This document shows, piece by piece, positions 4,328 through 55,000 of a stretch of 64,000 nucleotides of DNA. The notes under the pieces are model-generated. The model worked only from the letters and a program-made list of their open reading frames with translations, was not told where the DNA came from and ran no database searches. Origin of the DNA: Cyathus striatus (lineage: Eukaryota > Basidiomycota > Agaricomycetes > Agaricales > Nidulariaceae); NCBI GenBank assembly GCA_025738555.1, contig JAOVFP010000010.1, forward strand, positions 4,227,501-4,291,500, read 5' to 3'. The translations under genes were made by a program, and so were the position numbers. Numbering within the stretch: the first letter of the stretch is position 1; each line of letters opens with the position of its first letter.

Positions 4328-5841
4328 TCAATCGCTCTCTTCACTGTCTGGCATACTCCCCTCCCCAAACCATGTCGCATCACCGCCCCATCTACTTACT
4401 CTCGCCGTAGCAAACACCAGTTCACCCACAGGTATTGTCCCCTCACGAACATCTGCGCTGACCATATTTTTGGCTGCTTCTCGTCGAAGACGTAGAAGCG
4501 TTCTAGCGGAGAGGATGGAATGCAAAGACCGTTGTAGTCTGCGGATGAAGATGAGAGAGAGCATGATAATAGAATTTAAAGTGGTACTCACGATGTAACG
4601 AGGTTCGCATATTCGCGCTAATAACAGTTGATATCAGGCGACATATTTAAGACGAGAAGATATATACGTACTATATGCAAGAATAAAACGACCACGTTCA
4701 CCAGCGAAATTGCGGTGAGCACTGCATAATAGAGTATACCATCTTGATAGAAGGTATAAACGAACGACGATGAGCCTCGCCGTACTGTGATAATGATTAA
4801 ATCGACGCCGACGAGCAGACCCAGAGACATAGCTAACGTACAGTGCTGGATACCCTTCCAGATAGTCATAGCAAGTAAAACTATGCCAGGCTATAAATTC
4901 TATTCGTTCTTCGCTCTGAACAAGCAAAAATAACTCACTGGACTCCAATACGACCAACACCAAAAAGTCAACATACACAATATTTGTGCCCGCTTCCGGA
5001 AAGCAGCCGGGGATAGAGGGTGATATATCGTCCATTGCAATAACTTCCGATACAGTCAGCACCTAACCATTGGATAGGAATGCATAACTTACATGTCTGC
5101 GACCCATGGAACTTGACAAATCCCACCGCTGAACTAACAAGGGCAGAAATGGCAATAAATATGAGAAATATGCCGACTGTACGGTGCCGTTGGTAAAGAG
5201 CCCATATTCGAATGAGTAAGATGACTGCGGAATCAACTGTGAGATGAAAGTCGGAACGAGATAAGAGAATTGTCTAACCTTCAGCCACAACAATTCCGAT
5301 GATAATAAGCCCTGGAGATTAAAATTGAACAAGGTGTGCAATATACGATAGACGATAACTCACATCCCGTTACGCGGAATAAAGAAACGCACTTATTTGC
5401 AGATAGATGATATCCAATTTGATCTGCACCCAATACATGAGAATAATGGCACAACAGAAATTCAGAATAAACATACGATAAAGTGTTAAAATAGAGTCGA
5501 CAAACGCCGGATACCGCGTCAAGAAGAACAGCACTTTCCCCAGATTCCATGATCCGTTCCATGTGTACTTGATTTCGTCCGGCAGAGTGATCAAATAGTC
5601 TATAATCTGCAATCACATTAGAAAAGTTATAGACAACAGAAAAGGAATGATATTACAAGAAGCGCAGTCCCAGAAACTTTACAGCTCCGTAATCAGTTCC
5701 ATAGCCAAAATATAGCGAGGTAGGTTCATACCATGAAGATACTGCATGTCCTCACTTCAGCATCCGAAAGAACATGAAAACATAAAAACACACCGTGACC
5801 GTCTGCAACTTATACAGCGACTCGATAGTAGAGGCATCCAT
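4328..5841 (-). CDS. DUF6533-family seven-helix membrane protein
   Basis: Heavily spliced gene on the minus strand. Exon 1 starts MDASTIESLYKLQTVT. After an intron and two short exons comes the DUF6533 signature (ALLIIDYLITLPDEIKYTW, then KVLFFLTRYPAF). Further exons give hydrophobic helices: WLIIIGIVVAE, VILLIRIWALYQRHRTVGIF, LIFIAISALVSSAVGFV and others down to a soluble tail ending GSMPDSEESD. All joins I tested (for example TGG across GGA T|gtgagt...ctccag|GG) keep phase. DUF6533 proteins are abundant in mushroom genomes, sit in membranes and have no established role. A decayed partial copy of this gene's middle lies at about 8470-8795. Confidence 0.75.
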
Positions 5842-5910
5842 CCAAAAGATATAAAGTATGCAAGAACAAAATAAAAGCAGGATCCATCCCAGCCCGCAGT
5901 CATATGCCCT

Positions 5911-6240
5911 TCATAACGTGTCGAGGACATCCCTGTCCGCCTCGATCTCTAAGGTAGCCAGCGCCACAGTGATATTCGCATCAGGATAGGGTGCCTAGAT
6001 ATGATTGGAGGAGATAGAGAGAAGCTGACATACTAAATGAAACTCCACAGTGGTTTCACAGTGGCCGAGAACTGAGAAATCCGAAAGTGTTGAGAAAAGT
6101 CGCGCGTAGAGTCGCGGCGTTGTGAGGATTTTCGGTCCTATGATCCGGGGCGCTCGAGGGACGGGGTTATAAATTATAATACTCGCCGCTCTGCGCTTCT
6201 GCGCTACTCCCCGGAAACTCTTGCATAAAATACTGCACAA
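5911..6240 (-). CDS. small unknown gene, 5' end unresolved
   Basis: Two phase-consistent exons on the minus strand. The upstream one carries TTPRLYARLFSTLSDFSVL and ends in VEFHL. A clean intron (TTA|gtatgtc ... atatctag) follows, then APYPDANITVALATLEIE and a stop at 5911-5913. The reading looks protein-like, but I found no ATG in frame in the first exon. The true start must lie in an exon upstream of 6240, or the gene is broken. I do not recognise the family. It ends only 70 bp upstream of the DUF6533 start codon on the same strand. Confidence 0.35.
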
Positions 6241-7366
6241 AGATCTGAAAACGAAGCTGTTACTTTATATTAATTAGAAAAAGAGCAATAGTGCTGCTTA
6301 TGAACGACCAAAACCGTTCATTTTTCAAAGCAATTATTGAAAGTCGATTGCAACAAGTTTGCAAGTGACAAATCCGAGCCAGCTGATCTGCATCTGCCAG
6401 CTTACTTATCCCCAGCTAACAGTCGAACAATACAAAGCTCCAACCACCCTCGGGCCTAAGGGGCGAAGACTGATAAAGATAATTTGAAGATACTTAATAG
6501 AAGCAGACACCGAGACGTTTCATCATGACGTGCGACCTGCGATACGGCGTCGTCAACAACCACGGCCATCCACGGTGAGACACTACACCAAACATCGAGA
6601 ATACTTACATACCTTCCACAAACAAGGGAGGGTAGGTTTAAACGAGTAGGTATCACTTTTCACAGCTAAAAAACCGATGTAATATATATCCTATCCGATA
6701 TCTTTATATGTCGTGCAGATGGCTGATCATGCGTGCTAGAGAGCGATGAGAGAGATACGGCAGACATTCTTCAGGAAGCTCATCGCTCTTCTACCAAATT
6801 TCTCAAAGATATAATAGAATGACTTCGCGAACTTCTTTTCCCGCGTCGTACGACTCCCAGCTCAAGGCTAAGTTCCATGATGGTTGTAAATGGACCTGTG
6901 AGGAAGTTCACGCTTTCGGGTTTTAAGATATCCATTACAAGGGTCATTGTTTCTCCAACTTCCGGTCACGACTCGCGAGCACTTTGAAGTAATTGCTGGC
7001 TCAGTAGTTTCAGTAAGTGTACTCGGTAGTCTGCAACATCTTGGAGCCAAGTTAAGAGGAGAATTGAGCACTAGGAAAAGAACGTAGGGAAGTGTATGCT
7101 CAACAGATGAAACCGAGAGAGAAGAGGAGAATGTACCAGATCGCGGCCCCAAACTGGCCCCAAATGCACCAGACGGAGCAGAATTAAGAATTCTCACGAT
7201 GTTATGTCAGGTGGTACACTTACAAGCTGTAAGTACAAGATTGGCACAAGACTACATAGCTGGAACGATTACAACTTAAACAATACAATACCATCACGTA
7301 CGGTAATAAAAGTGAAACGCAACGTCCGAAGAGAATAATAAGTAACAATAAAATCCCAATAGCACC
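6241..7366. other. intergenic, AT-rich
   Basis: No convincing coding region. The part at 6640-6770, containing ctttatatgtcgtgcagatgg and a purine-rich gag tract, recurs in diverged form at 9165-9310. It belongs to the same duplicated block as the DUF6533 relic. Confidence 0.5.
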
Positions 7367-9409: not shown

Positions 9410-10799
9410 TCAGACGATATCCCATAGATCCTCGAGGGCGCAACAGAACTATAAGAAAGGCGTCAGAATATAGCGACGGATGAGACGAAAGCAACGCACC
9501 TTCCCGCAAGCAACACTAGCACTCAACGGATAATCGCTAATACCAATCTTCTCATCCACCCACTGGTCGGCAAAGTCGTCTCTTCCGCGCGCCATAGCGC
9601 CAACGAACACTGCGATGTTGTGCGTTGTAGGCAAGGTAGGGAGGTACCGGGACAGCCGTTGTACGGGTGCGTCACCGGAGAGGGCTATTAGATATAAGTA
9701 GCTGTAGACGATCGCTAAAGGGAGGGGGCTGCATACTGATTTTGATGGTGTTGGGGGGTAGGTGATCCGTTATAGGGTTTTTGACAACCTTGAGTAGTTT
9801 TTCGGGGCCATTGACGCCACGAATGGAGAGTTTGTGAAGGAGTTGGACTGCGATTAAAATAGATCAGCCAGGAGAGCGAGATAACGACGAAAGGGAGTTG
9901 CTCACCCATCAAGCCGCTGAATCTCTTGAACGTTCTCGGAATCCTGACATGGGGATTGACCTCGATTAGAACGTTCCTCGCAGTGTGGATGTAGACTTGT
10001 AAAAGGCCGGCCTTGTTGAGCGGAGAGTCAAGAAGGGTCAATAGGCACTGCAATAGATAAACGACGACGATCAGCGATCTGGAGACTTATCAGCGATAAA
10101 ACGGACCTGGTGAGTGATATCTGGCCTAGCATCGGCAATGTCCCTGCCGGTTTTCGCCAAAATACCCTGATGATCGTCGCAGTTGAGCAAAGTGTACTTG
10201 ACCTCGCCCTCCTTTCCATTTCTGCCCTTGCCCCCACTGCTTATCCTATAAGCCTCCAAGCAGGCCTGTTCGAGGATAACATAAAGCTTGCGATCATTTT
10301 TGCGTGCGACCTGAGCTTGAACGGGAAGCATAGAGGGATTGGCGACAACAGGATTGGGGCCAGCGGGGTTGGAAACGATTTTGCGTGTCTTGGAAGCAGG
10401 CAGTGGACGAGTGGGACGGTCGTTGTCGGCAGGGGAAAGAGCAGAGTTTGTATCTGACATTTTGAGGACAGGTTGTGGAGATGCAATAGGAAGTGGTGTA
10501 GGCTCTTCTTCCCGATCGACATTTTCTATTTGTTGATGCGCGTGCTCGTACTTTGTCCCATCCGGGTCTTCCACATCCTCTGCGTCCACCTGCATCCCCC
10601 CGTCTTCGCTGTCGCTGCTCGTGTGTCCTGGGCTCTTTTGTCGTCGTCGTTGCGTCGGGCGCTCGCCTGGTGTACTTTTAGGGCGGGGTGGGGGAATGAT
10701 GCCGCGGGGAGTAGTGGTGGTGGAGATGGAGGGCGAGCGGTCAGTGTTGTCGATGGAGCCTGAATGTCTGCGACGGCGGAGGGGGACGGTGGTGGGCAT
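9410..10799 (-). CDS. EMG1: rRNA pseudouridine N1-methyltransferase Emg1/Nep1
   Basis: SPOUT-class methyltransferase that methylates a pseudouridine in 18S rRNA and is needed for 40S subunit assembly in the nucleolus. Diagnostic stretches in order: [31 protein letters not shown] (exon 1 ends here at 10107), [95 protein letters not shown]. The last exon gives [12 protein letters not shown] and a stop at 9410-9412. At least five exons. Unusually, about 170 residues of low-complexity, Pro/Ser/Arg-rich sequence precede the catalytic domain, whereas the family is typically about 250 residues in all. An internal methionine (KMSDTNS) about 110 residues in is an alternative start. Confidence 0.93.
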
Positions 10800-13368
10800 T
10801 TTGAGTGGTGAGGGGTAGGGGGAGGTGATGGTTAAAAGGAAAGACTGGGTGATGTCTGATGGTGGCGGGAAGAACGTAGACTGGTCGGACCTGTTTCGGG
10901 ATAGAACTGGAGAAGAAAGAAAGGATATTAGACAAGATGATACGTATTTGAAGAAAATAATATATGCTGGTTATCAGAGGCAGTTCGTCGTCTCACATTT
11001 GTTGCCATTTTATTTTTTACTTTTCATTCACACGTGTTACGTCGGATGTCATTTCCCGAACTTCTCATCTTCATATCTCATTTATAGAACCGTTAATTTT
11101 CTCACTCAGTGCCCAGCATCCATCTCCATTTCGCAATTCAACTGTGGGGAACATAAAATAATCCTACTGATTCCAAACGAGACCGATATCTCTTGTTCAC
11201 ATGTCGACAAACTGCCCAAGCCATCTCCGTCGGGCACTCTACACGCACATACAAGCACAGACAAGCACCCACTCCCGTCCTCCTTCAATATCACAAAATA
11301 ACCAACCCAAATATAGACCTCCCACTCAAACTCTCAAGTGCTTGTTTTGGCCACAGAAGGAAACCACGGATCGAGCGAATGGGGCCTATATCCGCTAAGA
11401 AAGTCCAAGTGAAACGTTACTTGCGTCTGAGAATGCAGAACCGCAGAGCATCCTACAGCATCGTATCGATCCGCTGCCAGCACCAGCACCTCAAATTATG
11501 TATGTAGGCGTTCTGTAGGCACATTCTCCACTCTCACGACTTTTTATTCGCCCAGCAAAGACTCCAGTGCGTTCCGCCGCGATCTTTCACGGCGTGTTTT
11601 ATCTCGTGTGCACTATAATACCACCAAGCCCAACGTAAGTACTACAAACGTCCATACTCTTCAAGGGTCTAAAAATCCGTCATGTTCTCAATGCTGACCC
11701 TGACATCAAAATCAGATTAGTACCCTAGTCGCAAAAACGCTTCCTTCCATCTCCTCATGTTGTTCTGCCAATTCTTCAAGATCATTCTTCTTCCTTGTCC
11801 TGGTACCCAATTGCTGATCAGGGACTTGATCACTACCCCTGAAATCCTCATTACTCTGCAATATGTACGGAGAAACACGATAATCTGATCAAATACTTTC
11901 AAGAACACTTCATTTCGCATCCTGGTTAAAGATCTGCGGTTACTGTAAAGTTCTGCTTGTTCCCCATGCTCATACCGCTGCCGTCGCGTAATGTCAGGGT
12001 CTACGCACGTTCAAGGATAGCTGACTTATCGCGTTTCTTTCTCTTGTCTCGTGCTTTCCAATGACACGGTATTAAAAGAAGCAGAAGCAGAGAGCGGTAC
12101 TAGGCCTGGTACTGAAGCTGCGTGTACGTCTTGCACAATGAGACGCAAAATTTTCTAGGGCCGATCCTGGACTCTGGCTATCTTGCTGAACTGCTCCGCG
12201 TATGGTATATTATCAAGTTCCAATGCGTAATTACCCTTGCCTCGCGAGCTGCAACATTGCCCGAATGGCCACCGATAATACTTCGAGTGGGAAGTTCATA
12301 ATGAACTTTTGCACAGGAAGCATCTCAAGACTTCTCGTATACACGTAGATCACTCGGGATTTGTTTCTACCTCTCTCTCGCACTTTCCTGAGAACTCAAT
12401 AGACACTTCATTTCCATTCCCTGTCCGTTTGATGCATCTTGACAACTCAACAACTCGCGCTTTCTCTTAGCCTCTCTCACCCGAGGACGGTTCCTCGGCC
12501 AGTGACAGCGCAGCCGAATGCTCCAGTTCTCACTCCTCTCAAAGATGGTACACCCTCCTTCCACTATCAAAGCAACTATCTGATATGATAGCGATACCGG
12601 AACTCGGCCTCTCACTGTCCCATAGGTCGTACTTCATCTACTTCAATTCCGTGAATCTCGCGGTACACAAACCTCGATCGTGTACATTCTTCCTATATAA
12701 CCTTTGCGCAGCAAAGCTGGCTCCGAAATCTCGGGATGGCTTGGAGAAGAATAGGTGACTGGCACCGAGGATTTCCACGTGGTGGCTGTTCATGAAGTTT
12801 TATGTATGTCGTTCTCAGGAACTACCTATTTCTCAGAGTTTGTTAGGGTGAGGAGACTAGATAGGGGCTCGCGACTCGGAGACGTATAATTAACTTGTGG
12901 CTGTTCATCAGAAGTTTGTGCATGAGCCCCAGTCCACCATGAAGAGGAAATCCTAGAGCTTGAAATACGCTCACCAAGATAAGTAACATGGTATGCACGT
13001 ACTCATACAGTGCCATGTATGTGTACTACGAATATCAGTGTACTTACCTTCCCAACACCTCGTGGTGCTTACGCGTCCTGAGACTCATATTACCTTACTT
13101 CACGTCCCCATGACGCTCGCAACCATTTCTTCATACTCTCCGAAACTTTCGTGGTTCTTGATGTTCGTTGTCCACTCAAATGACACGAACAGCTGCATTA
13201 TTGTCGCACAGTGTGAAGATTGGATAAGAGTAAAAATAATCCAGCTTCCTCGGAAGTAACGTCGACGTACTTCAGGCTAGTGTTGGCTCTCATCTTATGT
13301 TGTATATCTTTCATAAAAAAAGGTAGTCATTTCCAACGAATTTCAAAACTACTAGGTCGAAAAGTTAA
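10800..13368. other. gene-poor region
   Basis: About 2.6 kb without a gene I can support. Several short open frames exist on both strands (for example minus 11717-11920), but none shows protein-like composition, splice continuity or a recognisable motif. Unspliced or non-coding transcripts cannot be excluded. Confidence 0.5.
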
Positions 13369-23248: not shown

Positions 23249-23865
23249 TCAATCCAGACATCGTGCTTGTCGGTGGCGCATATACAATCGATACACCGTA
23301 CGCTCAGTGAACATGCTTCCATCCGCAGGAGCTCCTCGTGTTCCATTAGGCAGAATTATCCAACGTCTGTTTTGCGGAATTCCAGTCATAGATCGAAGGT
23401 CGATTCTGAACATTTTCATCCGGGCGCTGATCATACACGTTCTTCTGGCCTCCCAATCGTGAAAACATCAATATGTACTAGTCGGATTTGACTAGAATAG
23501 CTTCCACCCTCGAGGACACTGCACAATGGCGGGAAGCACCAATAGTGGGAAGATCTAGTGAAATTCACATGTAGTCTTGCAGAATTGACTCGTAAAGCTT
23601 CTACGTTCAAGAACTTTGTGTAAGGGAATGAAGAACTCCACATTTGATTTTGGAGTACGATCGACCAGAAGTCTGATACCATGATACCAATTGCACGGCT
23701 CTCCAAAAGCAACGAGTCGTAAGCTTTCCAAGGTGTAGAATAATTTCTTAAAGACAACAAATATCCTTCTGGTCCGCAGTGATGTGTTGTTTCTAATGAG
23801 CGAATCTTGTGACTTTCAGCATTCTCCTCGTTATCCCGCGTAAGCCGTGGTGTCTGGTGTACCAA
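23249..23865 (-). pseudogene. possible eroded F-box/LRR-type fragment
   Basis: Two overlapping minus-strand frames read as fragments of a leucine-rich protein (KFLNVEALRVNSARLHVNF, then SQIRLVHIDVFTIG). They resemble the C-terminal half of mushroom F-box proteins, but no F-box, start codon context or consistent splicing is found. This is a weak call based on composition only. Confidence 0.25.
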
Positions 23866-24116
23866 TGGACCAGGTGTTTTTCTCCAAGAATAGCATCTGA
23901 AATATCCAGTCCGTCATGAGCGATGGCGATGCTATAGTCCACCGAACGCTAAGATAATAAAAACCTAACATTCTCTTCGTTAGCCCGCGCAAGCCGTGGT
24001 CTCTGATGTACCAATGAACCAAGTGTTTCTCTCCGAGAATAGCTTCTGAAATATCCAGTCCGTCATAAGCGATGGCGATGATATAGTCCTCCGAACGCTG
24101 AGAGAGCCAATAAAAA
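23818..24116. repeat. tandem duplication, about 150 bp x 2
   Basis: Copy 1 (about 23818-23966) and copy 2 (about 23969-24116) share runs such as gaatagc(a/t)tctgaaatatcc, cagtccgtcat(g/a)agcgatgg and ccaatg(g/a)accaagtgttt-like text. Identity is roughly 85-90 percent by eye. No reading frame is conserved through both. Confidence 0.8.
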
Positions 24117-41325: not shown

Positions 41326-41820
41326 CTAGGCTTTCGGAACCTCTGCAATGCACTCGATCTCTACGGCTGCTCCGAACGGAAGGCTGGCAACTCCTACGCA
41401 CGTCCTAGCAGGCATTTTTCCAGCTTCGAAGAACTATGCATCCGATCAGAAGCTGATAAATTGTTCAGAAAATGGGTCCTTACTTCGCTGTAAACCTCGT
41501 TCATGAGGTGGAACTCTCCCTGCATGTTTGCCATGTATATGTTCGCCTTAACGACATGTTCTAACCCGGATCCTGCCGCCTTCAAAACGATTGACATGTT
41601 CTCCAAAGCTGCCCGCTGGATTTATTATGATCTACCTCGTGTCATCACATTTGGAAAGCGTTGTGCTTACTGTTTGCGCCTTTATGCCACCATCTACCAG
41701 TTTGAACTCTTTTGTGCAACCGATTGTTCCTGACAAGAACACACGGCCGTCCGAAATCACTGCTTGACTGAAGACTGGTAAAGCAGGCACTGCCTCTGGG
41801 GTATACACTATTTGCTTCAT
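41326..41820 (-). CDS. RidA/YjgF-YER057c family protein
   Basis: Enamine/imine deaminase family that clears reactive 2-aminoacrylate-type intermediates released by PLP enzymes. Three exons join in phase: MKQIVYTPEAVPALPVFSQA and VFLSGTIGCTKEFKLVDGG to KAQT|gtaagc; RAALENMSIVLKAAGSGLEH, VVKANIYMANMQGEFHLMNE to VYSE|gtaagg; then FFEAGKMPARTCVGVASLPF, GAAVEIECIAEVPKA. The catalytic-site Arg (PARTCVGVASLP) and closing Glu (EIECIA) are conserved. Length about 125, as usual. Cytosolic or mitochondrial; no clear presequence. It is the nearest gene to the UstYa-like oxidase, but family members are housekeeping, so this need not mean shared function. Confidence 0.92.
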
Positions 41821-42323
41821 GGCTGGGATCAAGTGTGCAGTTATCAATAGATCTACTATCGCGCTCATCGTTTTATCATCAAAAGTTCCCAAGTCACGTT
41901 CACCCTCGATGCACACCATCGTATCATGTGAACGTCCGATATAGCCCAGCGGATCCATTGCAACTTCGCAAGATCGGAGCGGTCAAACCCTCGTTTGCCT
42001 ATTTGGCAATTGGAAAGTACGTATACCATTCATCATACCTTCTTCTGCTGAGTCTGTCAGATTTCTTTATCCCTGTTCCGTGGTCGCAGGGAAATATAAC
42101 ATACTTATGTTCTGTGGCTATTTTTACGTCTCCACCTTGCCTTCCCTAACCGAACGCCGAAAGCGTGCTGTTGTATCTGGTATTGAAACTTGGCATAAGT
42201 TTCTGCAATAAGGAAATTGCTTTGTAAACAGATGTCATTAATGCTATTTATAATTCTATATCATCTATTCAGTTCTATTCTAGGGCTATGTAGCTGGCGC
42301 TACAAGGAATTGCAAGACCTTCC
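41821..42323. other. intergenic
   Basis: About 500 bp: RidA promoter side and 3' flank of the UstYa-like gene. No gene seen. Confidence 0.5.
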
Positions 42324-43370
42324 TCAAGGAGGGTGAGGGAGATCGACTTCGTCTCCGAAACGTACCACATGGTCTACTGGAATTCTGACACTGTGGGCAT
42401 TATTCCACGAGATAATCTTGTCAAAATTCCTGCATTCATGGGCCGTGTTGAAATTAGGGTATGCCAAATCCCACCCTTGAACCCAGTCGTAGGTTATGAT
42501 ATTTACGTCGCTCGTACACATTAGCCTTTGACGAAGCATCTCGATACAGTGGTCTACGTTTCGTGTCTAATGTGTAAGTGATTGTGTCCTGTTTTACCAT
42601 ATCATTTGATACTCACCGAGATGATGGTACAGCTCAGTTGGCTTTCTATCAAACATATCATCGGATTTGTAGTAATCTCGATAAGTGAACTTTCTTAACA
42701 TATTCTGTAACGTTTTGATAAGCAAACGTTTTAAATTTTCCGACCTCCACACCTACCAAACAATGTAGCTGGTGGTTTACTTCAAGAGTGGCCATATAGC
42801 CCCCTCCATCTTCATCCTGGAACTTAACAGAAGATGGCCGGGGAGGTTTGCCAGTTCTTTTGTAAGTCTCTTCTGAGATACGAATTGGTGTAACTGGTAG
42901 ACAAGATGTTATATTTGAAGTGGCAGAAACTTCCCGACCAATGCTTACTATCATGTGTAACCCGATTCCAAGCAATGTCGACCTCTGGTCCTGGAGGCCC
43001 TCGATATATTGATGGATACAGGAAGGACCCGTTGAAGGTCACAGTTTCGTATTCGACTGCCTCGAGTGCAGGTGCTATACAAAGAGCATTTTAAATAACG
43101 AAATCTTCATTTTATACACCACTTACAATAAATCGCATTAGACGGTTCCTTGACTCCTTGTAAGCATTCTGAGGTCCTTTTATTTGACTTTAAGCGTAGC
43201 GAGATGCCTAGAAAGCTGGTAGACAAGACAAGCAAGAGTATATTAACAAGGAGCAGTCGTTTTAGCTGCAATCGAGTCCGCTTCGCGTGTAGTAAGCCGT
43301 TTAACGAATCGATACCCTCTCTCTCTTCGGAATCTGGAACTGGACTGTAACTCACAGCTAAGGAGGGCAT
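42324..43370 (-). CDS. UstYa-family oxidase (DUF3328)
   Basis: Five exons (43127-43370, 42949-43074, 42757-42893, 42617-42704, 42324-42553) give 274 residues in frame, the usual size. A cytosolic N-terminus (MPSLAVSYSPVPDSEE) leads to a signal anchor (LLLVNILLLVLSTSFLGISL) and a lumenal domain. That domain has YRGPPGPEVDIAWNRVTHD, KFQDEDGGGYMATLEVNHQL and both signature motifs: HQLHC (exon 3) and HHLDHC (exon 4/5 junction), followed by EMLRQRLMC and a His/Glu-containing tail (NTAHECRNFDKIISW). In ascomycetes these proteins are proposed copper oxidases that cyclise or otherwise oxidise ribosomally made peptides (ustiloxin, asperipin, phomopsin pathways). All motif residues are intact. The neighbouring secreted repeat protein is a possible substrate. 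Confidence 0.92.
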
Positions 43371-43792
43371 TTTGAGAAGGAATGCCTGACCTGCGTTATT
43401 GGACTTGTTTTACACCTGGGCGGCTATACGTCAAGATTATCTCGAAGCCCGAAGTTGGTGGATCTTTGGACTTGATCAACTGATGATAGACATCGTACGG
43501 CAAGGGAACAGCTTTCGGGCTGTCCTATCAAAACGTGCCCATGGATTGCTCATGTGCCTGTTGGAATAAGATTAGCTCTTCGCTCCCGGAAACTAAAACT
43601 TACTGTAGAAGCAATCAAGCACAGGAATATGTTGAGCTGCGGGGGCCAATCGCGGCGATAGTAAGCTACCACAAGTTACAACTACAAGTACCAACTTTGA
43701 TCATAATCAGTCTGATTGCTGCATCCACAAAAAATACTTTACAGATATAATTATTACTACAAAATATACAACATAGTTCAATATGAGCGGTC
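43371..43792. other. intergenic
   Basis: About 420 bp between the UstYa-like gene's start and the stop of the seven-helix gene, both on the minus strand. No gene seen. Confidence 0.5.
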
Positions 43793-45252
43793 TCAAGACT
43801 CGTTTACTGTATACTCCTCATCATCGATCCGAGATAATTCCAGGTCCGTGTCATAACTATTGCTAAACTTGCCTCCATCTGGCCGCACGGATTGAGAGCT
43901 ATGATGCCCAATGTTCAAAACTTTCATGTTGGAAGTGCGTCGTGCAGTAAGACCATCCGGGACCGTGACAGTTGCTTGTTCGGGATCGATCTCTGAGCAA
44001 CAAACATCGTAAGACGTGTTTTTGTGATTGCGTTATCACTGGATATTCCAAGGGCGACACGGACAATTACCAGTGAGAATACGATTCCCTGAAATTTCGC
44101 AGGTTACCGTCTACTTCAAAGAACGCTCCAAAATAATAATAATAACTTACAATAACCTGCGTGACCTATATGAAAGAATAAGAACGTTAATGGCGACGGC
44201 TTCGTTAGGAAATTTAAATAACGTACCGCATCCAGAACAATATACTGGGCAAAACTCCCACTAAGATACAGAGACAGCAGAATTACAAGGCAAGCAGAGT
44301 AAATAGCCCCGGATTCGACGATGACAACAGCGGCAGGTACAAGACTTCGACCGCCAACTAGTCCGATAGTTCTTCGGTGAGTCCACCAAATGCGTCCGGC
44401 GATAAGGGCTAAAAAGTATTATGAAGTGTATAAGGTCCATTTAAAATGCACATACTTGTACAGCTGAAGTTTGTAAAAAGTGTCAAAGAAAAAAACGAAA
44501 CAATCCAGTTCTGAAGTTTTGAAATGAACACTTGTTCATCCGGTGCAGCCCTAGCAAATGCTTGTAAGGCGCCGATACCAACACCTAGAAAATGTTAACA
44601 GGTAAAGTTCAAAAGACGCAAACCAGGGTCTTACCAATACTCGCAATGAAACAGATTGAGATAGGTATCACAACCCGCTTTTCACCAAGCCAGACAAAAT
44701 AGAGGCGATAAAGCTACATAATATGTCATTACTAGGCACAAAGAAGTAATCGTGCAGACACTTTATGACGTACGATGAAGGCATCTCCAACAAGAGTCTG
44801 GGTGGCGTATGCGGTGCTCTTTAAGACGTAGATAGGGACATTTACTTGACTAAGATATCCTATGGGTCCACCCTCTGTATCGCTTGAATACAAGAATGCG
44901 ATCAACATTCGTCGTAAGTCAACTCCGACATGCTAGAAATATATTGCAATGCTTAACTCCATAATATTACCACGTGAAATAGAAGACGTACTATTGTAGC
45001 TAGAATAAACATTGTTATTGAAACTGTTAACAGTATCTTGTTGATTCGGTGAGCCGATTTCTTAAACTTGCGCAACAATACGATAGTCGAAGATATGAAC
45101 AAAAAGATGAATAAACCTAGGAAATTGATGGTTGGTATCATATTGAAATATTCGAAGACAGGTTTGCGAGACGCACCGTATAACACTGATTCTACGAATA
45201 TAGAAACCAGGGTAACAGCATCAAGGCCAATAGATCCTCTGTTTTTTGGCAT
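43793..45252 (-). CDS. seven-helix membrane protein, basidiomycete type
   Basis: Multi-exon gene starting MPKNRGSIGLDAVTLVSIFV; an in-frame methionine ten codons upstream at 45282 is an alternative. Hydrophobic segments follow in order: INFLGLFIFLFISSTIVLL, ILLTVSITMFILATI, then VLKSTAYATQTLVGDAFIV, VVIPISICFIASIGVGIGAL, IVSFFSLTLFTNFSCT, LVPAAVVIVESGAIYSACLV, YIVLDAVTQV and IVFSLVIVRV. The soluble tail ends ELSRIDDEEYTVNES. The layout matches a large mushroom family of unknown function, often annotated only as hypothetical or DUF6534-like. Divergently oriented from the repeat-protein gene, with 927 bp between starts. A role as transporter or receptor for its product would be speculation. Confidence 0.75.
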
Positions 45253-46117
45253 TTGATGAATAGACAGCTCCAGAAAACTCAAAAGATGACTTGGGAGGCG
45301 TAAATGGCGAAGCTGTTACCTATAAAGGCACTTAAAGGAGCTAGAACTTGAACCAATTACTGTTATAACCGACGCGTACGCTGCCTACGGGACAGTCACT
45401 CTACCGACAGCTGGGATCAGGAAATTTTAACCTACGTACTTCATTGTCCAGGATTATCCGCAACTAATTATAACAGTGCCTTTGGTGATAATGATCGCGA
45501 GGTCATAACCTGCGAAACACAATCGAGGGGATATTCCGGGGCATACTGTATGTTGCGAAACATCAAGGACTTGTCACAGTTTGATTAGATACCAGTATCC
45601 ACTCGAATTAAAATTAGCCGGGAAGTTCACGAGGATTTATATTTTCACCCGTACCTTGTCCGTACCATCAAAAAGGAAGGATTTGCCTTGTTCACCGACA
45701 CCTTCGGAACGAAGAAGACACGTTTTTTGCATGTGGCATGCAATGATAGGCAATAATGCGGTCTGTCCGGTACGAGAAGTAAGAAGTTACTGTACAAGCA
45801 GTAGAGCAAAGAACTACTTAGACGATATGAAATAACAGCACCTAGATAAGAATCAGTACGCACGGTTATCATAGAGTGATTACATGTAGGTAGGGCTCGG
45901 AGATGCATTACAATAAGCACGGGCGATGAAGGCAGTTACAATGGAAGCGTCGCACGTTCATCAATTTTTATCAAACTTAATAAGTCCCAGAAATACATTA
46001 GTGTCATGAGCATACCGATCCGGATCACAACACAAATTTACCGTTTTGTACTTGGTCTTGACTCAAGGGGGTACTATGGCTATGGCTATGGCTATGAAGT
46101 TAGAGGAAATGATAATG
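45253..46117. promoter_or_regulatory. intergenic region between divergent genes
   Basis: Together with the leader to 46179 this 927-bp gap separates the divergent seven-helix gene and the secreted repeat-protein gene. It must hold both promoters. A short hexamer array (ggctat x4 or so, 46075-46097) lies just upstream of the TATA box. No coding region supported. Confidence 0.5.
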
Positions 46118-46124
46118 TATAAAA
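46118..46124 (+). promoter_or_regulatory. TATA box of the repeat-protein gene
   Basis: TATAAAA 56 bp before the start codon at 46180, a compact strong-promoter layout. It supports the plus-strand gene over the open minus-strand frames that overlap it. Confidence 0.65.
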
Positions 46125-46179
46125 GCCATCTTGGAGTCGCATTAAATTGTTCAGACACCATTTGAATTTCACCCCGACT

Positions 46180-47000
46180 ATGATGTTCAAAAATATTCCA
46201 CTCGCTGTTGCTACGCTTCTTCTCCTTCCATTGATAGCGATCGTCTCTGCTGCTCCCGCTCCAGGTAAGTGCCATGACGTAGATCGCTACGAGTACTGTC
46301 TGGTTGACAAAATATCGCAGCCCCATACAAGTTTAGCTATGAGCCAGACAGCCGCCGAGAAAGCGAGCAGCTGAGGGGTAACTTTGGTCGTGAAGCCGAA
46401 GTACAGCGCGGAAACTTTGGCCGTGAAGTTGAAGTACAGAGGGGCAACTTTGGTCGTGAAGCCGGAGTCCAACGCGGAAACTTTGGCCGTGACGTAGAGG
46501 TACAGAGAGGCAACTTTGGACGCGAAGCCGAAGTACAGCGCGGAAACTTTGGCCGTGAAGTTGAAGTACAGAGGGGCAACTTTGGTCGTGAAGCCGAAGT
46601 CCAACGCGGAAACTTTGGCCGTGACGTAGAGGTACAGAGAGGCAACTTTGGACGCGAAGCCGAAGTACAGCGCGGAAACTTTGGCCGTGAAGTTGAAGTA
46701 CAGAGGGGCAACTTTGGTCGTGAAGCCGAAGTCCAACGCGGAAACTTTGGCCGTGACGTAGAGGTACAGAGAGGCAACTTTGGACGCGAAGCCGAAGTAC
46801 AGCGCGGAAACTTTGGCCGTGAAGTTGAAGTACAGAGGGGCAACTTTGGTCGTGAAGCCGAAGTCCAACGCGGAAACTTTGGTCGCGATGTAGAGGTACA
46901 GAGAGGTAACTTTGGACGCGAAGCCGAAGTACAGAGAGGCAACTTCGGCCGTGAAGTGGAAGTGCAACGTGGAAACTTCGGACGGGAAATCCTAAACTAG
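46180..47000 (+). CDS. secreted 19-repeat protein, candidate RiPP/Kex2-type precursor
   Basis: Two exons (46180-46264, 46321-47000) joined at G|gtaagt...cgcag|CC give 254 residues. The N-terminus is a signal peptide ([20 protein letters not shown], then IVSAAPAP). A short spacer with a dibasic site ([12 protein letters not shown]) follows. Then come 19 uninterrupted copies of an 11-residue unit RGNFGR + EAEVQ, EVEVQ or DVEVQ (one EAGVQ). The last unit ends EILN and stop. No Cys, Lys, Tyr, Ser or Thr occurs within the repeats. Short identical cores separated by acidic spacers resemble dikaritin precursors and other Kex2-processed repeat proteins. The EAEV spacers also recall dipeptidase-trimmed spacers of alpha-factor precursors. 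Each core is bounded only by single arginines, so processing is uncertain. Alternatively it could be an intact structural wall or surface protein. A UstYa-like oxidase lies 3 kb away. Confidence 0.85.
46374..46985 (+). repeat. 33-bp coding minisatellite, 19 units with 132-bp higher order
   Basis: Eighteen full 33-bp units plus a closing half unit, all in frame. Spacers cycle EAEVQ(cag)-EVEVQ-EAEVQ(caa)-DVEVQ, so the true period is four units (132 bp), repeated nearly without change four and a half times. Synonymous differences within the four-unit block are conserved between blocks. This shows recent block amplification or unequal exchange. Confidence 0.95.
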
Positions 47001-48991: not shown

Positions 48992-49039
48992 CTGCGAGAC
49001 ATCCGTATTTATATTTGAGATTCAATGGAAGCTGTAAAA

Positions 49040-49264
49040 ATGAATAAAATGAATAAAATGAATAAAATGAATAAAATGAATAAAATGAATAAAATGAATA
49101 AAATGAATAAAATGAATAAAATGAATAAAATGAATAAAATGAATAAAATGAATAAAATGAATAAAATGAATAAAATGAATAAAATGAATAAAATGAATAA
49201 AATGAATAAAATGAATAAAATGAATAAAATGAATAAAATGAATAAAATGAATAAAATGAATAAG
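49040..49264. repeat. 9-bp minisatellite, 25 copies
   Basis: Twenty-five perfect copies of atgaataaa. Because 9 is a multiple of 3, frames stay open on both strands and spell Met-Asn-Lys or Phe-Ile-Leu/Tyr-Ser-Phe repeats. I do not regard these as genes. Confidence 0.97.
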
Positions 49265-49731: not shown

Positions 49732-50073
49732 GTACAGAGTACTTCTGAGTCATCTATAGAATCAATTGAAATTGAAACGAAAATGGAAATAATGGACGGG
49801 GTTCATAGACAACATTTGAATTAGTATTCAATATTATGCGCACACACTCCAAATCATATATTTCTCAGACGCTAGACTTTAAACCAGCCATTCACGCGCT
49901 TGATTACTCAGTCACACATTTTCCTGATACAAAACAGCATCAGCGCCCTTGAAAGAGCGGCGGGCTCAGAGTTCAAATAAATTTTAAAGGGTATAAATGT
50001 ATAGAAAATTAAAAGCGAAACCGTCCCAAAAATAAAATAAAACGAGTCCCAAGCTCGTGTTGAAATATAAAAA
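49732..50073. other. intergenic
   Basis: About 340 bp of AT-rich 3' flank of the following minus-strand gene. No gene seen. Confidence 0.5.
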
Positions 50074-51556
50074 TCAAACTGAAAACCTCCTTTTTCCACC
50101 CATCCAAAGACTCCTCAATACCTGATCCACAACACCAATAGGCGCTTCAGAATCCTCACAAGGTGTCAACAACCCCATCTCAGCAGCTTCTATTGCGTAA
50201 TCGTCCTTCTCCAGGCGTTCCTTGGGGAGGTAGTAGGACATCTGCGAGGGGAGGGGTATAATATGCACAGGATCCTCCATTGGTTCGTTCCATACGTCAA
50301 TTTTCACTAGAGGGACGAAGGGAGTTGAGGATAGGGAAGAGGGACGCGGGCGTGAAGGTAGTCGCTTGGGAGAATCTAAGAGCTTTTGTAGTACTTCGTC
50401 TATAACGCCTGAATTGACTCCGCCTGCTTCTGGAGATTTCGGCTGAGATATGGATTCGATCATGTTCTTGCATGGGCATTCGAAGTTTGGAAATATGTCC
50501 ATAGGGCAGGTTGGTGGTGAAGAAGTGGGTATCAGCACGTCTGGATTTGAGGCTTGAGATGTATCACAGGAGACAGCACTAGTAAAAACATCGTCTTGGT
50601 ATATCGGATCCGCTTGGAAGAGCAAGCCAGCAGGGGGGTCGGTTTGGAATATCTCCTCCAGAACGGTTTCTTCTTTGGTATTGGTATTCGAGTCTGGCCG
50701 GGGGGAGGCTGACGCGCTTTGGTTATCGACTGTATCCTCAAATGGAACCGAGAGAGGGGATATTCGGCGCGTAAACGCAACGGGGGTACACAGAACAGAC
50801 GTAGGTAGGGTATCATCGGAGACACTGAAGCAGAGAGGAGATAACACAGCGTCTTCGCAGGGAGCATCGATTTTGTCAACACAAGCAAGCTCCGGAGCAG
50901 ATGAAGTCTCTTCGCAGCAGTCCAAGGAGACAAGAGGTATTTGATCGTTCTCAGGGGCACAGTCCGTTTCGCTAACCGCCAGATTTTCTGCACATTTAGA
51001 AGATGGGAGGTCGACAGTCTGCATAGCCAAAGTAAATGGACCGGTTTGCATGACCTGAGGGGAAGAGGAGCACTTGGACACACGAGGGGTTTCCGGGGAC
51101 TGGATCACTATATTTGGAAGGGAGGCGGACTGAGCCAATCCCTTTCTGGGGCTGGCGGACGACGGTTTGTAGAGAAGCGGCTGCCGGGAGTGAGAGCCGG
51201 AAGGAAGCAGTAGCTGTGTATCAGCATACCTTGACCATTCCTTCGACCATCTTCTCTGCCTTGGACTTTGAGTTGACGGCCTCCCTCTCTGCCACGATGC
51301 GAGGAAGCTGGAGTGGACGCAATGGAGACGTTCCCTGAGGTGCCTTGTGCATGTGGCCGTACAAACAGTAGCCAACGATGACAAAGAGACAGAAGACAGC
51401 GATGCAAATGCCAGAAATAGCGAAAGGGTGGCTGAGGATGGTTGAGAGAGGGCCTGCCTCGATAGCGAAGGACGATGGATTAAGGGAATGAGAGGTGGGG
51501 AGGTGGTCATACGTGAGAGGAGCCATTGGTATATCGGATAGAGGTGGTGGTGGCAT
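50074..51556 (-). CDS. hypothetical single-pass membrane protein
   Basis: Two exons with one 49-nt intron (AAG|gtatgc...cggcag|CCG) give 477 residues in frame. Exon 1 starts MPPPPLSDIPMAPLTYDHLP and has one membrane helix near residues 45-65 (ISGICIAVFCLFVIVGYCLY), followed by a basic stretch. The remaining roughly 400 residues are Ser/Pro-rich and probably disordered, with a conserved-looking end (DEVLQKLLDSPKRLPSR, GVVDQVLRSLWMGGKRRFSV). No signal peptide cleavage site is obvious, so the short N-terminus is probably outside or lumenal and the tail cytosolic. Function unknown. Confidence 0.75.
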
Positions 51557-52036
51557 GCAATGAAAAAGAGATGAAATAGGCGCAAGGAAAGGTTATATAG
51601 GCCATGAGTGAGGCTGACATTGCCAATTGGTGGCACACGATAGGACACGATCGAGGATGGCCTAATAATAGCTTGTGTTAATGAAATTCCATTTCCAGCA
51701 AGTAGATCTTTTTCAAGCTAAAATTGAGTCGAGCAGAACAAGCAGAACACTGACAACGAGAGTCGACGACTGCAGCAGGACAGATCAGGACAGTTAGCGG
51801 GACATGTCTCCTGGTTCCTGAACGTTTGAACAGGAAGAATGGTGTGTGACGGATTAGGAGGTGACATGGCTCGATCGATCAATTCAAACAGCAGCAAACA
51901 AATAATTTTGGTTGATTAGATGGGGAAATGTTTTTTTCTCTTCTCCTCTTCCTCCCCACTCGAATTCGACACTCCTCTAATCCGAGTGGAGAGGAAGACG
52001 ACTACTGCTACCATATCATACAATACTATTACCCAC
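51557..52036. promoter_or_regulatory. divergent promoter region, membrane protein / URA2
   Basis: 480 bp between divergent starts. A cctatataacc box (TATA-like for the minus gene) lies near 51593, and a CT-rich leader precedes the URA2 start. No gene seen. Confidence 0.5.
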
Positions 52037-55000
52037 ATGGCACAACCCACCAACTCAGACCCCCTCAACACCCTTCAGCCCACTCTCACAACCACTGCCA
52101 CCAACTTTGCCAACGGTCTACCCGCTCCCCCCTCAGGCATTCTCACCGCACGCGAAGATGCAGTTGATGGTGTTCTTGAGCTTGCTGACGGTTCCGCATA
52201 CAGGGGAATCAGCTTCGGTGCAGAAGGCAAAAGCATCGCTGGAGAATGCGTCTTCCAGACAGGTTTGTAAAAAAAACTTCTCTTCCTTCTCGGCCTTCAT
52301 TAACCGTCAACAGGCATGGTGGGATATACCGAGTCTCTGACTGACCCATCATACGAGGGACAGATCCTCGTTCTAACCTACCCTCTCATTGGAAACTACG
52401 GTGTCCCCGAGCGGCCCGAAACCTTCGACACCCTTGCCGCCGAGTTTGAATCCTCAAGGATCCACATCGCCGCCCTCGTCGTTGGCTACTATTCTGAAGA
52501 CTTCAGCCACTTCCTTGCAAAATCCTCCCTTTCCACATGGCTTAAAGAAAATGGCGTGCCTGCCCTTTACGGCATCGACACTCGCGCCCTCACCAAAAAG
52601 ATCAGGGAAAAAGGTTCCATGCTAGGCAAGGTCCTCGCACGCAATGCTGAACCCCGCCAGAACCACCTCCTGACTCGCGTTCTCCCACACACCTCCGCCT
52701 TCCCATCTGTTCCCTCCACTCCTTATGCATGGCGCGAAGAGTACATTGACATTCCTTTCTCTGACCCTAACCAAAATAACCTCGTCGCTGCCGTCTCTAT
52801 ACCAGCACCTCGTGTGTTCCCGCCCACGAAGACACCTCGTTTACACCCTTCCGGTCGTCCCATACGAGTCCTCGTCATCGATGTTGGCATGAAGTACAAC
52901 CAGATCCGCTGCTTCACTGAGCGCGGCGTTGAGCTCAAGGTCGTCCCCTGGAACTATGATTTCCTCACCGAGTCAGAGCCATACGACGGTCTTTTCATCT
53001 CCAATGGACCCGGTGACCCCACTATGGTGAAGGAAACGATCGCTCGCCTATCCAAGGCCATGGAAAAGGCAGAATTCCCCATCTTCGGTATTTGTCTGGG
53101 TCATCAGCTCATCTCCTTGGCTGCTGGTGCGACCACTTCCAAGATGAAGTACGGTAACAGAGGACACAACATTCCTTGCACTGACGCGCTCTCTGGCCGG
53201 TGTTACATTACCTCCCAGAATCACGGTTTCCAAGTCGACACCGACTCTCTTCCGACGGGATGGAAGGAGTTATTCAAGAACGCAAACGATGGTAGCAACG
53301 AGGGTATCTACTGCGTCGACAAGCCCTTCTTTTCCGTCCAGTTCCATCCAGAGTCGACGCCCGGCCCTCGCGACACTGAGTTCCTCTTTGACGTCTTCAT
53401 CCAGAACATCGTCGACTGCGCTACCACCAACTCTCTTGTTCCCATCCAGATGCCCGGTGGCAAGAAGGAGGACAACGAGAAGCGCGTCCCACGCGCGAAG
53501 GTCAGCAAGGTCATCATTCTTGGATCTGGTGGTCTTTCTATTGGTCAGGCTGGTGAATTCGATTACTCCGGCTCGCAGGCTATCAAGGCTCTCAAGGAGG
53601 AGGGTATCTACACTATCATGGTGAACCCGAACATTGCTACCATCGCCACGTCGAAGGGTCTCGCGGACAAGGTTTACTTCCTCCCTGTCACTCCGGAGTT
53701 TGTCCGCAAGATCATCAAGTACGAGAAGCCCGATGGTATTTACGTCACTTTCGGTGGACAGACTGCGCTCAATGTCGGCATCAAGCTCAAGGATGAGTTC
53801 AAGGAGCTCGGTGTGCAGGTGCTCGGTACGCCCATTGAGACTATCATCACTACCGAGGACAGGCAGCTCTTTGCTAGTGCCATGGAGGAGATTGGAGAGA
53901 AGTGCGCACAGAGCTGCACTGCTACCAATGTCGATGAGGCTATTGCTGCCGCTGTAGAGATTGGGTTCCCCATTATCGTTCGTGCTGCTTACGCACTTGG
54001 TGGTCTTGGCTCTGGGTTTGCGCAGAATGAAGCGCAGCTCAGGGCGCTCTGCAGCAAGGCATTTGCCACCAGTCCTCAGGTCCTCGTTGAGAAGAGTATG
54101 AAGGGTTGGAAGGAGATTGAGTATGAGGTTGTCCGCGATTGTAGGGATAACTGTATTACAGTGTGTAATATGGAGGTACGTTCGCACATGGCAGTTTTGA
54201 AGTACATGGCTAATATCTTCACATCTAGAACTTTGATCCTCTCGGTATTCACACTGGAGACTCCATCGTCGTTGCGCCTTCGCAGACGCTCTCGGACTCG
54301 GACTATAATATGCTTCGGACAACAGCCATCAATGTCATCCGCCACCTTGGTGTTGTTGGTGAATGTAACATCCAGTACGCATTGAACCCCACTTCGCAGG
54401 AATACTGCATCATCGAAGTCAACGCACGTCTCTCGCGTTCTTCCGCTCTTGCTTCCAAGGCCACCGGATACCCTCTTGCTTTCATCGCTGCCAAACTCGG
54501 TCTCGGGATTCCGCTTAATGAGATCAAGAACTCCGTTACGAAGGTCACTTCTGCGTGCTTCGAGCCCAGCTTGGATTATGTTGTTGTTAAGATCCCTCGT
54601 TGGGATCTTAAGAAGTTCACGCGTGTTAGTCGTTTGTTGAGCAGTAGCATGAAGAGTGTTGGTGAGGTTATGAGTATTGGCCGTACCTTTGAGGAGACTA
54701 TTCAGAAGGCGATTCGGGCTATTGATGATTCTTTCTCTGGCTTTGCTAAGGTTGGTCATTACTTACTGTGAGTCGTGCTGAATCTGACGGTTTGGTGTTA
54801 GAACGATTATGTCGAGAACATTGATGAGGAGCTGGTCAACCCAACTGACAAGCGTATCTTTGCCATTTCGACTGCTTTCCACCGCGGATACAGCGTCGAC
54901 AAGGTTTGGCAGATGACTAACATCGACAAGTGGTTCTTGAGGAAGCTGTATAATATCTTCGAGATGGAGAACCGCCTTGAGTATGTTTTGCTCATATTGT

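Follow-up and report, generated by a model that had tools for sequence, protein, structure and literature searches.

This report concerns two neighboring genes in a stretch of 64,000 nucleotides of the Cyathus striatus genome (contig JAOVFP010000010.1, positions 4,227,501 to 4,291,500 of the forward strand; hereafter the window). One gene encodes a protein made mostly of an 11-residue repeat, here called the precursor, and the other an oxidase of the UstYa/DUF3328 family. The initial annotation of the window, made from the letters alone, had taken the pair for a dikaritin-like locus, that is, one specifying a ribosomally synthesized and post-translationally modified peptide (RiPP). We argue that the product of the repeat gene is probably a secreted precursor with multiple peptide cores, of the kexin (alpha-factor-like) type, a likelihood that applies to the peptide-precursor part of the reading alone. 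That the precursor and UstYa work together is suggested.

A repeat protein under selection

The precursor gene has two exons and a product of 254 aa (Table 1). Its earlier description as a signal-peptide-type gene with 19 RGNFGR blocks was borne out: the block is present in 19/19 units, and a hydrophobic stretch spans residues 6-24 of the N terminus (value 2.48; inspection by eye and simple scripts were used to call the signal peptide and the splice sites). The residues that precede the block are EAEVQ, EVEVQ or DVEVQ, except in unit 1 (ESEQL) and unit 4 (EAGVQ). The repeat array is not due to chance. Tandem Repeats Finder assigns to it periods of 66 and 132 bp (scores 888 and 1084), the coding unit being 33 bp, and the higher-scoring 132-bp super-unit is a sign of recent duplication in four-unit blocks.

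A second copy of the locus, on contig C3, has 11 units in place of 19, and RGNFGR is unchanged in 30/30 units of both copies. The 30 units represent 12 distinct DNA sequences, among which the block differs only synonymously. The codons do vary: four Arg codons are used at position 6, three Gly codons at positions 7 and 10, two Phe codons at position 9 and three Arg codons at position 11. The ratio of nonsynonymous to synonymous differences (pN/pS) among the 12 distinct units is 0.06 for the block, a value that arises from path averaging between AGR and CGN codons, 0 for GNFG and 0.21 for the spacer, which is also conserved, if less strictly. The units are not independent since they have spread by duplication. 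As the same residues are specified by different codons, however, that spread cannot account for the conservation, and the synonymous-only variation of the block indicates that the peptide is under purifying selection.

The gene had also been described as TATA-driven. A candidate box, TATAAAAG, does lie 62 bp upstream of the ATG, but it is weak evidence alone: TATAWAAG occurs three times in the window when 3.6 occurrences are expected by chance.

The structure predicted for the exon-2 frame (window 46308-46997, including four intron-encoded residues, run without an alignment) shows strands with a 22-residue period at a mean predicted local distance difference test score (pLDDT) of 47.7, a confidence low enough to make it neutral. 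A folded repeat domain was set aside, the model being too low in confidence to inform on it. A match to the DNA pattern at C1:2994872 was rejected as well: it is a single one, and its frame is without repeats.

The UstYa gene and its surroundings

A UstYa/DUF3328 gene with both HxxHC motifs intact had been placed about 3 kb from the precursor, and this is confirmed, the two start codons being 2810 bp apart. The protein matches Pfam PF11807 at E 5.4e-67 over profile positions 6-220 of 220, has its motifs as HQLHC at 164 and HLDHC at 197, and retains the His and Cys residues at the positions that are invariant or nearly so in an alignment with 26/94 database matches. A single hydrophobic stretch, residues 39-57, would serve as an N-terminal membrane anchor. 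The best database match, with 61% identity across 87% of the query, is the Cyathus striatus protein BDQ17DRAFT_1540840. The same protein is the sister of UstYa, at 100/99 support, in a tree of 70 rows (69 matches of 235-325 residues and the query), where UstYa belongs to a supported 32-row clade whose named members we take to be basidiomycetes of mushroom and polypore genera. Gymnopilus junonius and Taiwanofungus camphoratus are among the species with a protein of the UstYa clade. A search for relatives of solved structure returned 0 at E up to 1, and NCBIfam has no match for either the UstYa protein or the precursor. Copper-dependent oxidation has been reported for one member of the family, CctR (PMC12435403).

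Between the two genes, and unmentioned in the initial annotation, lies a gene for a multi-pass membrane protein. It matches no Pfam family over the cut-off and, we assume, resembles a large agaricomycete family of seven-transmembrane proteins. That it might be a receptor for the peptide is pure speculation. The annotation had seen no methyltransferase, tyrosinase or peptidase gene between the pair. In 28 open reading frames (ORFs) and gene models scanned, which are far from every ORF of the window and among which introns can hide exons, Pfam gave no match to a tyrosinase domain, a RiPP-cluster peptidase or a small-molecule methyltransferase. The only methyltransferase family matched was EMG1/NEP1 (10071-10970), presumably an rRNA methyltransferase family, and a Peptidase_C26 match sits inside a carbamoyl-phosphate synthase gene. 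Directly downstream of UstYa, a YjgF/RidA-like exon is seen at 41632-41982 on the minus strand (PF01042, E 3.5e-4, below the curated cut-off).

Table 1. Features of the locus, in window coordinates
Feature	Position	Strand	Remarks
Precursor gene	46180-47000	+	two exons; 254 aa
Candidate TATA box of the precursor gene, TATAAAAG	46118-46125	+	62 bp upstream of ATG
Precursor exon 1	46180-46264	+	ATG at 46180; encodes the signal peptide
Signal-peptide stretch	46180-46251	+	by inspection; VSA|AP cleavage
Precursor intron	46265-46320	+	56 bp, GT-AG; frame of the C3 copy also open with identical splice sites
Precursor exon 2	46321-47000	+	repeat array, C-terminal EILN, stop TAG
Arg-Arg immediately preceding unit 1	46353-46358	+	sole dibasic site in the precursor
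Repeat array	46359-46985	+	19 units of 33 bp (11 aa)
Multi-pass membrane protein gene	~45252-43924	-	~7-8 hydrophobic stretches; C-terminal splicing uncertain
UstYa/DUF3328 oxidase gene	43370-42324	-	five exons, GT-AG junctions; 274 aa
UstYa exons	43370-43127, 43074-42949, 42893-42757, 42704-42617, 42553-42324	-	

A second copy of the locus

The copy on C3 lies at 5.953-5.966 Mb in reverse orientation. The C3 segments around both genes have 98.5-99.6% identity to the window, and the segment over window 49832-53163 has 95.7%. Its UstYa gene is intact, with seven synonymous and two non-synonymous codon differences. The presence of 11 units in one copy and 19 in the other fits a cassette of interchangeable cores.

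From the sequence matches, the two copies are best read as alleles, C3 representing the other haplotype. The terminal part of contig C10 has a 98% match to C3 at 5.377 Mb, in reverse orientation, and a repeat pair (C3 6.313 Mb and C10 3.916 Mb) agrees with the reverse order, as expected of two contigs that overlap by ~0.9 Mb on different haplotypes. A contrary sign is that the very end of C3 pairs best with C10 at 3.414 Mb in the same direction, in a query that is mostly repeat (43 matches). The second subunit of RNA polymerase is matched at three places only, which argues against a general doubling of the assembly. The alternative, a recent large duplication, we consider less likely.

One difference between the copies is an insertion of ~900 bp found only on C3, ~450 bp downstream of the precursor (L009 ~5491-6392; absent at window 47446). 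It has 99-bp inverted terminal repeats that are 98% identical, and resembles an element of the miniature inverted-repeat transposable element (MITE) type.

Register and proposed processing of the precursor

Protein searches of the genome revealed two further precursors. One (L051; C3:5130101-5130490, minus strand) consists of 33-bp units of the form (K/R)R-EAEA-GAPNW, and its repeat exon holds 13 APNW cores, 11 of them GAPNW, between KR/RR-EAEA-type sites. The other (L069; C4:1710623-1710865, plus strand) has six AAPPW cores between KR/RR sites. When the window unit is set against the GAPNW unit, the best of the 11 circular phases is the register anchored at cleavage, with a BLOSUM62 score of 19 against at most 3 for the others (P 0.013 from shuffles scored over all phases), and Gly-Arg then falls on Lys-Arg. 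The leader Arg-Arg at the exact boundary of this register, together with the GAPNW alignment, points to a cut after Arg, an EAEV spacer and a QRGNFG peptide, with Gly-Arg standing in for the dibasic site. We prefer this to a reading of the repeat as RGNFGR cores separated by inert spacers.

Processing of this kind would begin in the Golgi, where a kexin-type convertase would cut after the leader Arg-Arg and then after each Gly-Arg, at the place taken by Lys-Arg or Arg-Arg in the related precursors. A Ste13-type aminopeptidase would trim the EA and EV dipeptides from the acidic spacer, and Kex1 would remove the C-terminal Arg to leave QRGNFG, perhaps as a pyroglutamyl peptide. The Arg preceding GNFG shows the same conservation and could belong to the peptide or be a second cut site; if both Arg residues were cut, the product would be GNFGR instead. 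The calculated [M+H]+ values are 678.3318 for QRGNFG, 661.3052 for the pyroglutamyl form, 550.2732 for GNFGR and 1262.6236 for a whole unit. Lastly, the membrane-anchored UstYa, with its catalytic part in the same compartment, might oxidize or cross-link the peptide, a step that we propose tentatively and with less assurance than the cuts. Candidates for the processing enzymes are present in the genome, at two places with a kexin-type P-domain and four with DPPIV-N. Amidation of the C-terminal Gly would call for an enzyme of the peptidylglycine alpha-amidating monooxygenase (PAM) type: PF03712 finds no match in the genome, but it finds none in any control either.

Cleavage at single Arg residues has a precedent, since Coprinopsis precursors produced in Pichia are reported to give products of such cleavage (PMC9769878), and Kex2 is described as tolerating P2 residues other than Lys or Arg (PMC8528282). 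Several observations nonetheless weigh against a kexin-type precursor. There is no dibasic site between the units. The residues that would occupy P2 (Gly or Gln) and P4 (Asn or Glu) are not among the preferred Kex2 residues given in the same source (PMC8528282). Ste13 is described as preferring XA and XP, and the EV and DV spacers are outside this preference (PMC6339444). Taken alone, the seven inner residues do not align significantly with the GAPNW unit (P 0.13). With the inner residues not above chance, the likeness is one of processing architecture, and common descent is not proved.

Nor does conservation across species lend support here, as no homologue of the precursor was found. Among 5.8 billion proteins the full protein found none at E up to 10 (7998 candidates scored), and residues 1-74 of the C3 form likewise found none at E up to 10 (364 candidates), although the composition correction applied to repeats may hide distant homologues. 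RGNFGR and GNFGR were absent from 6 of the 8 papers matched by a literature search, those that it listed.

The lack of dibasic sites within the array is also what would be expected of a protein that is not processed at all but stays whole at the hyphal surface or in the matrix, with Phe and Arg as stickers at regular intervals and acidic residues as spacers. The common units hold two acidic and two basic residues, and Arg and Phe are both conserved. Rsp3 of Ustilago maydis is reported as a repetitive secreted protein with length polymorphism (PMC5923269). Rep1 peptides are also described as coating hyphae but they are Kex2-processed (PMC8528282). An unprocessed protein would not explain why Arg-Arg stands exactly at the start of the array, or why the register is common to a dibasic precursor, and we consider it unlikely. 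The likelihoods given in this report answer two questions, whether the protein is processed and whether UstYa acts on it, and they do not sum to a whole.

Does UstYa act on the precursor?

If the kexin-type reading is correct, a further step upon it, and not an alternative to it, is a dikaritin-like RiPP locus in which UstYa cross-links or hydroxylates the released core, for example through Phe or Asn. The UstYa gene is intact in both copies, with the His and Cys positions conserved. It is the second gene from the precursor, a position close to the 3.09 genes that such pairs average in a survey of fungi (PMC7329392). The family is described as including hydroxylases and macrocyclases, and CctR as membrane-anchored with a proposed lumenal domain (PMC12435403). 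These points are offset by the intervening gene, by the lack of a further tailoring gene among the ORFs scanned, and by the published count for basidiomycetes, in which 103/1680 Kex2-processed repeat proteins (KEPs; 6.1%) have a DUF3328 neighbor (PMC7329392). Action of UstYa on the core is a doubtful proposition on balance.

The two genes may instead be neighbors by chance, UstYa serving another pathway or acting alone, and we give this close to an even prospect. The genome has 32 UstYa matches grouped into 22 places, or 21 without the second copy, a lower bound as places were counted exon by exon, and most have no precursor in the sequence examined. UstYa-like genes are common in mushrooms; 16 are reported in Pleurotus ostreatus, for example (PMC8893723). 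The membrane-protein gene between the pair and the lack of other cluster genes among the ORFs scanned also fit coincidence. Against coincidence, any one gene would have only 0.0014 UstYa places within 3 kb by chance (21 places, ~106 Mb), a figure that rises to ~0.03-0.04 if the genome has 22-31 precursors as in C. cinerea (precursor numbers from PMC9769878). The enrichment of DUF3328 genes reported next to KEP genes speaks against it too: such neighbors are counted for 1758/7878 KEPs (22%) overall (PMC7329392). With three exceptions, the survey found no DUF3328 neighbor for precursors whose annotation is mating factor or pheromone.

For a functional link, proximity alone is modest evidence, the pair having been picked after the fact, and other results count against the link. 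Of the 20 other UstYa places, the analysis covered the flanks of 19 (4 kb or more on both sides for 10, ~1.5 kb for 9; C5:589118 was left out), and no convincing repeat precursor was found there. Three controls, the C3 copy and the GAPNW and AAPPW precursors, were all recovered by the same repeat test. For the latter two precursors, no UstYa place lies closer than 0.8 Mb. The gene that intervenes in the window is another unfavorable sign.

Two repeat matches did come up near UstYa places. The weaker, in L078, has 65 aa and a self-identity of 0.43. The stronger, in L036 near C1:8389172, also has 65 aa, with a 28-residue period, a self-identity of 0.77 and a KR in the period. It belongs to an 84-bp tandem array of 5.5 copies (L036 2630-3101) about 1 kb from a UstYa-like place. 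As an intact precursor it was rejected, stops interrupting the array in all six frames; it could be non-coding or a decayed precursor. Elsewhere, four UstYa-family places, on both strands, fall within 4.5 kb at C3:2564951-2569288; no repeat precursor was found in the ~5.7 kb to either side.

Comparison with known systems

Among known systems, the closest in plan are the Agaricomycetes KEPs with Ste13 signatures, such as those with -AADW and -PSW cores in Pleurotus and Coprinopsis. As described (PMC9769878, PMC6339444), they share with the precursor a signal peptide, many short, near-identical units, EA-type dipeptides after the presumed cuts, and a short core with an aromatic residue at or near its end. 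The window gene differs from them in having Gly-Arg for the dibasic site, many EV and DV spacers, the core QRGNFG and a UstYa gene nearby. The definition of KEPs in the published survey (PMC7329392) asks for a signal peptide (by SignalP; here a hydrophobic stretch and VSA|AP cleavage by inspection), at least three tandem repeats of at least eight residues (here 19 units of 11) and KR, KK, RK or RR between repeats (here a lone RR before unit 1 and none between units). The precursor works like a KEP yet fails the strict definition.

The GAPNW precursor of the same genome has 33-bp units, the R-EAE- register, and an Asn-aromatic pair whose second member stands two places ahead of the Arg of the cut, all as in the window gene; it differs by its true KR/RR sites, mostly EAEA spacers and the lack of a UstYa place within 0.8 Mb.

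The dikaritins (ustiloxin, phomopsin, asperipin-2a) resemble the present case in combining a secreted multi-core precursor with a close UstYa/DUF3328 gene, here 2.8 kb away with one gene between. They differ in having dibasic Kex2 sites around the cores and, in ustiloxin, phomopsin and asperipin, a core Tyr that is cross-linked; here the core has no Tyr, the host is a basidiomycete, there is one UstYa gene, and neither a tyrosinase nor a cluster peptidase was seen in the ORFs scanned. The dikaritin logic first proposed for the locus therefore stands in part: a multi-core precursor, a selected core and an intact UstYa gene within 3 kb are found in both copies, but membership in the class is not established, given the lack of dibasic inter-unit sites and of a further tailoring gene in the ORFs scanned.

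The core of victorin is unrelated to a core of the QRGNFG type. Victorin has a multi-core precursor that is likely processed by Kex2, and a product cyclized through a Phe side chain; it differs from the present case in its ascomycete origin, the peptidases encoded in its cluster and the chlorination of the product (PMC9233826). The Phe closure bears on the earlier suggestion that a cross-link without Tyr would be chemically new, which was too strong. Cores without Tyr next to UstYa genes are not new: of the repeats in precursors with a DUF3328 neighbor, 65.6% contain Tyr and 34.4% do not (PMC7329392).

Implications

What would be new is the combination of alpha-factor-like spacers, single-Arg sites and a UstYa neighbor in a mushroom-type fungus. 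The complete picture, an agaricomycete RiPP system in which an alpha-factor-like precursor with single-Arg (Gly-Arg) sites yields the Tyr-free QRGNFG and a UstYa copper oxidase modifies Phe, Asn or Arg, appears improbable as a whole. Should UstYa act on the precursor, the locus would offer a testable case of the family working on a mushroom ribosomal peptide. As to UstYa acting on ribosomal peptides of mushroom-type fungi, the literature searched, which included few subscription papers, gave predictions only and no biochemical demonstration.

Genome screens for repeat precursors, as described, require inter-repeat Kex2 sites, dibasic in one case (PMC7329392) and Kex2 sites in another (PMC6339444). 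A gene with Gly-Arg in place of dibasic inter-unit sites would not be listed by the former, going by its stated requirement (PMC7329392). With a selected precursor of this kind missed by a dibasic screen, the class may exceed current counts.

Other features of the window

Two repeats of other kinds were noted in the window. About 2 kb downstream of the precursor, at 49037-49263, the 9-mer AAAATGAAT is repeated perfectly 25 times, a microsatellite of unusual purity. At 23820-24103 there is a direct duplication of 149 bp with 89% matches.

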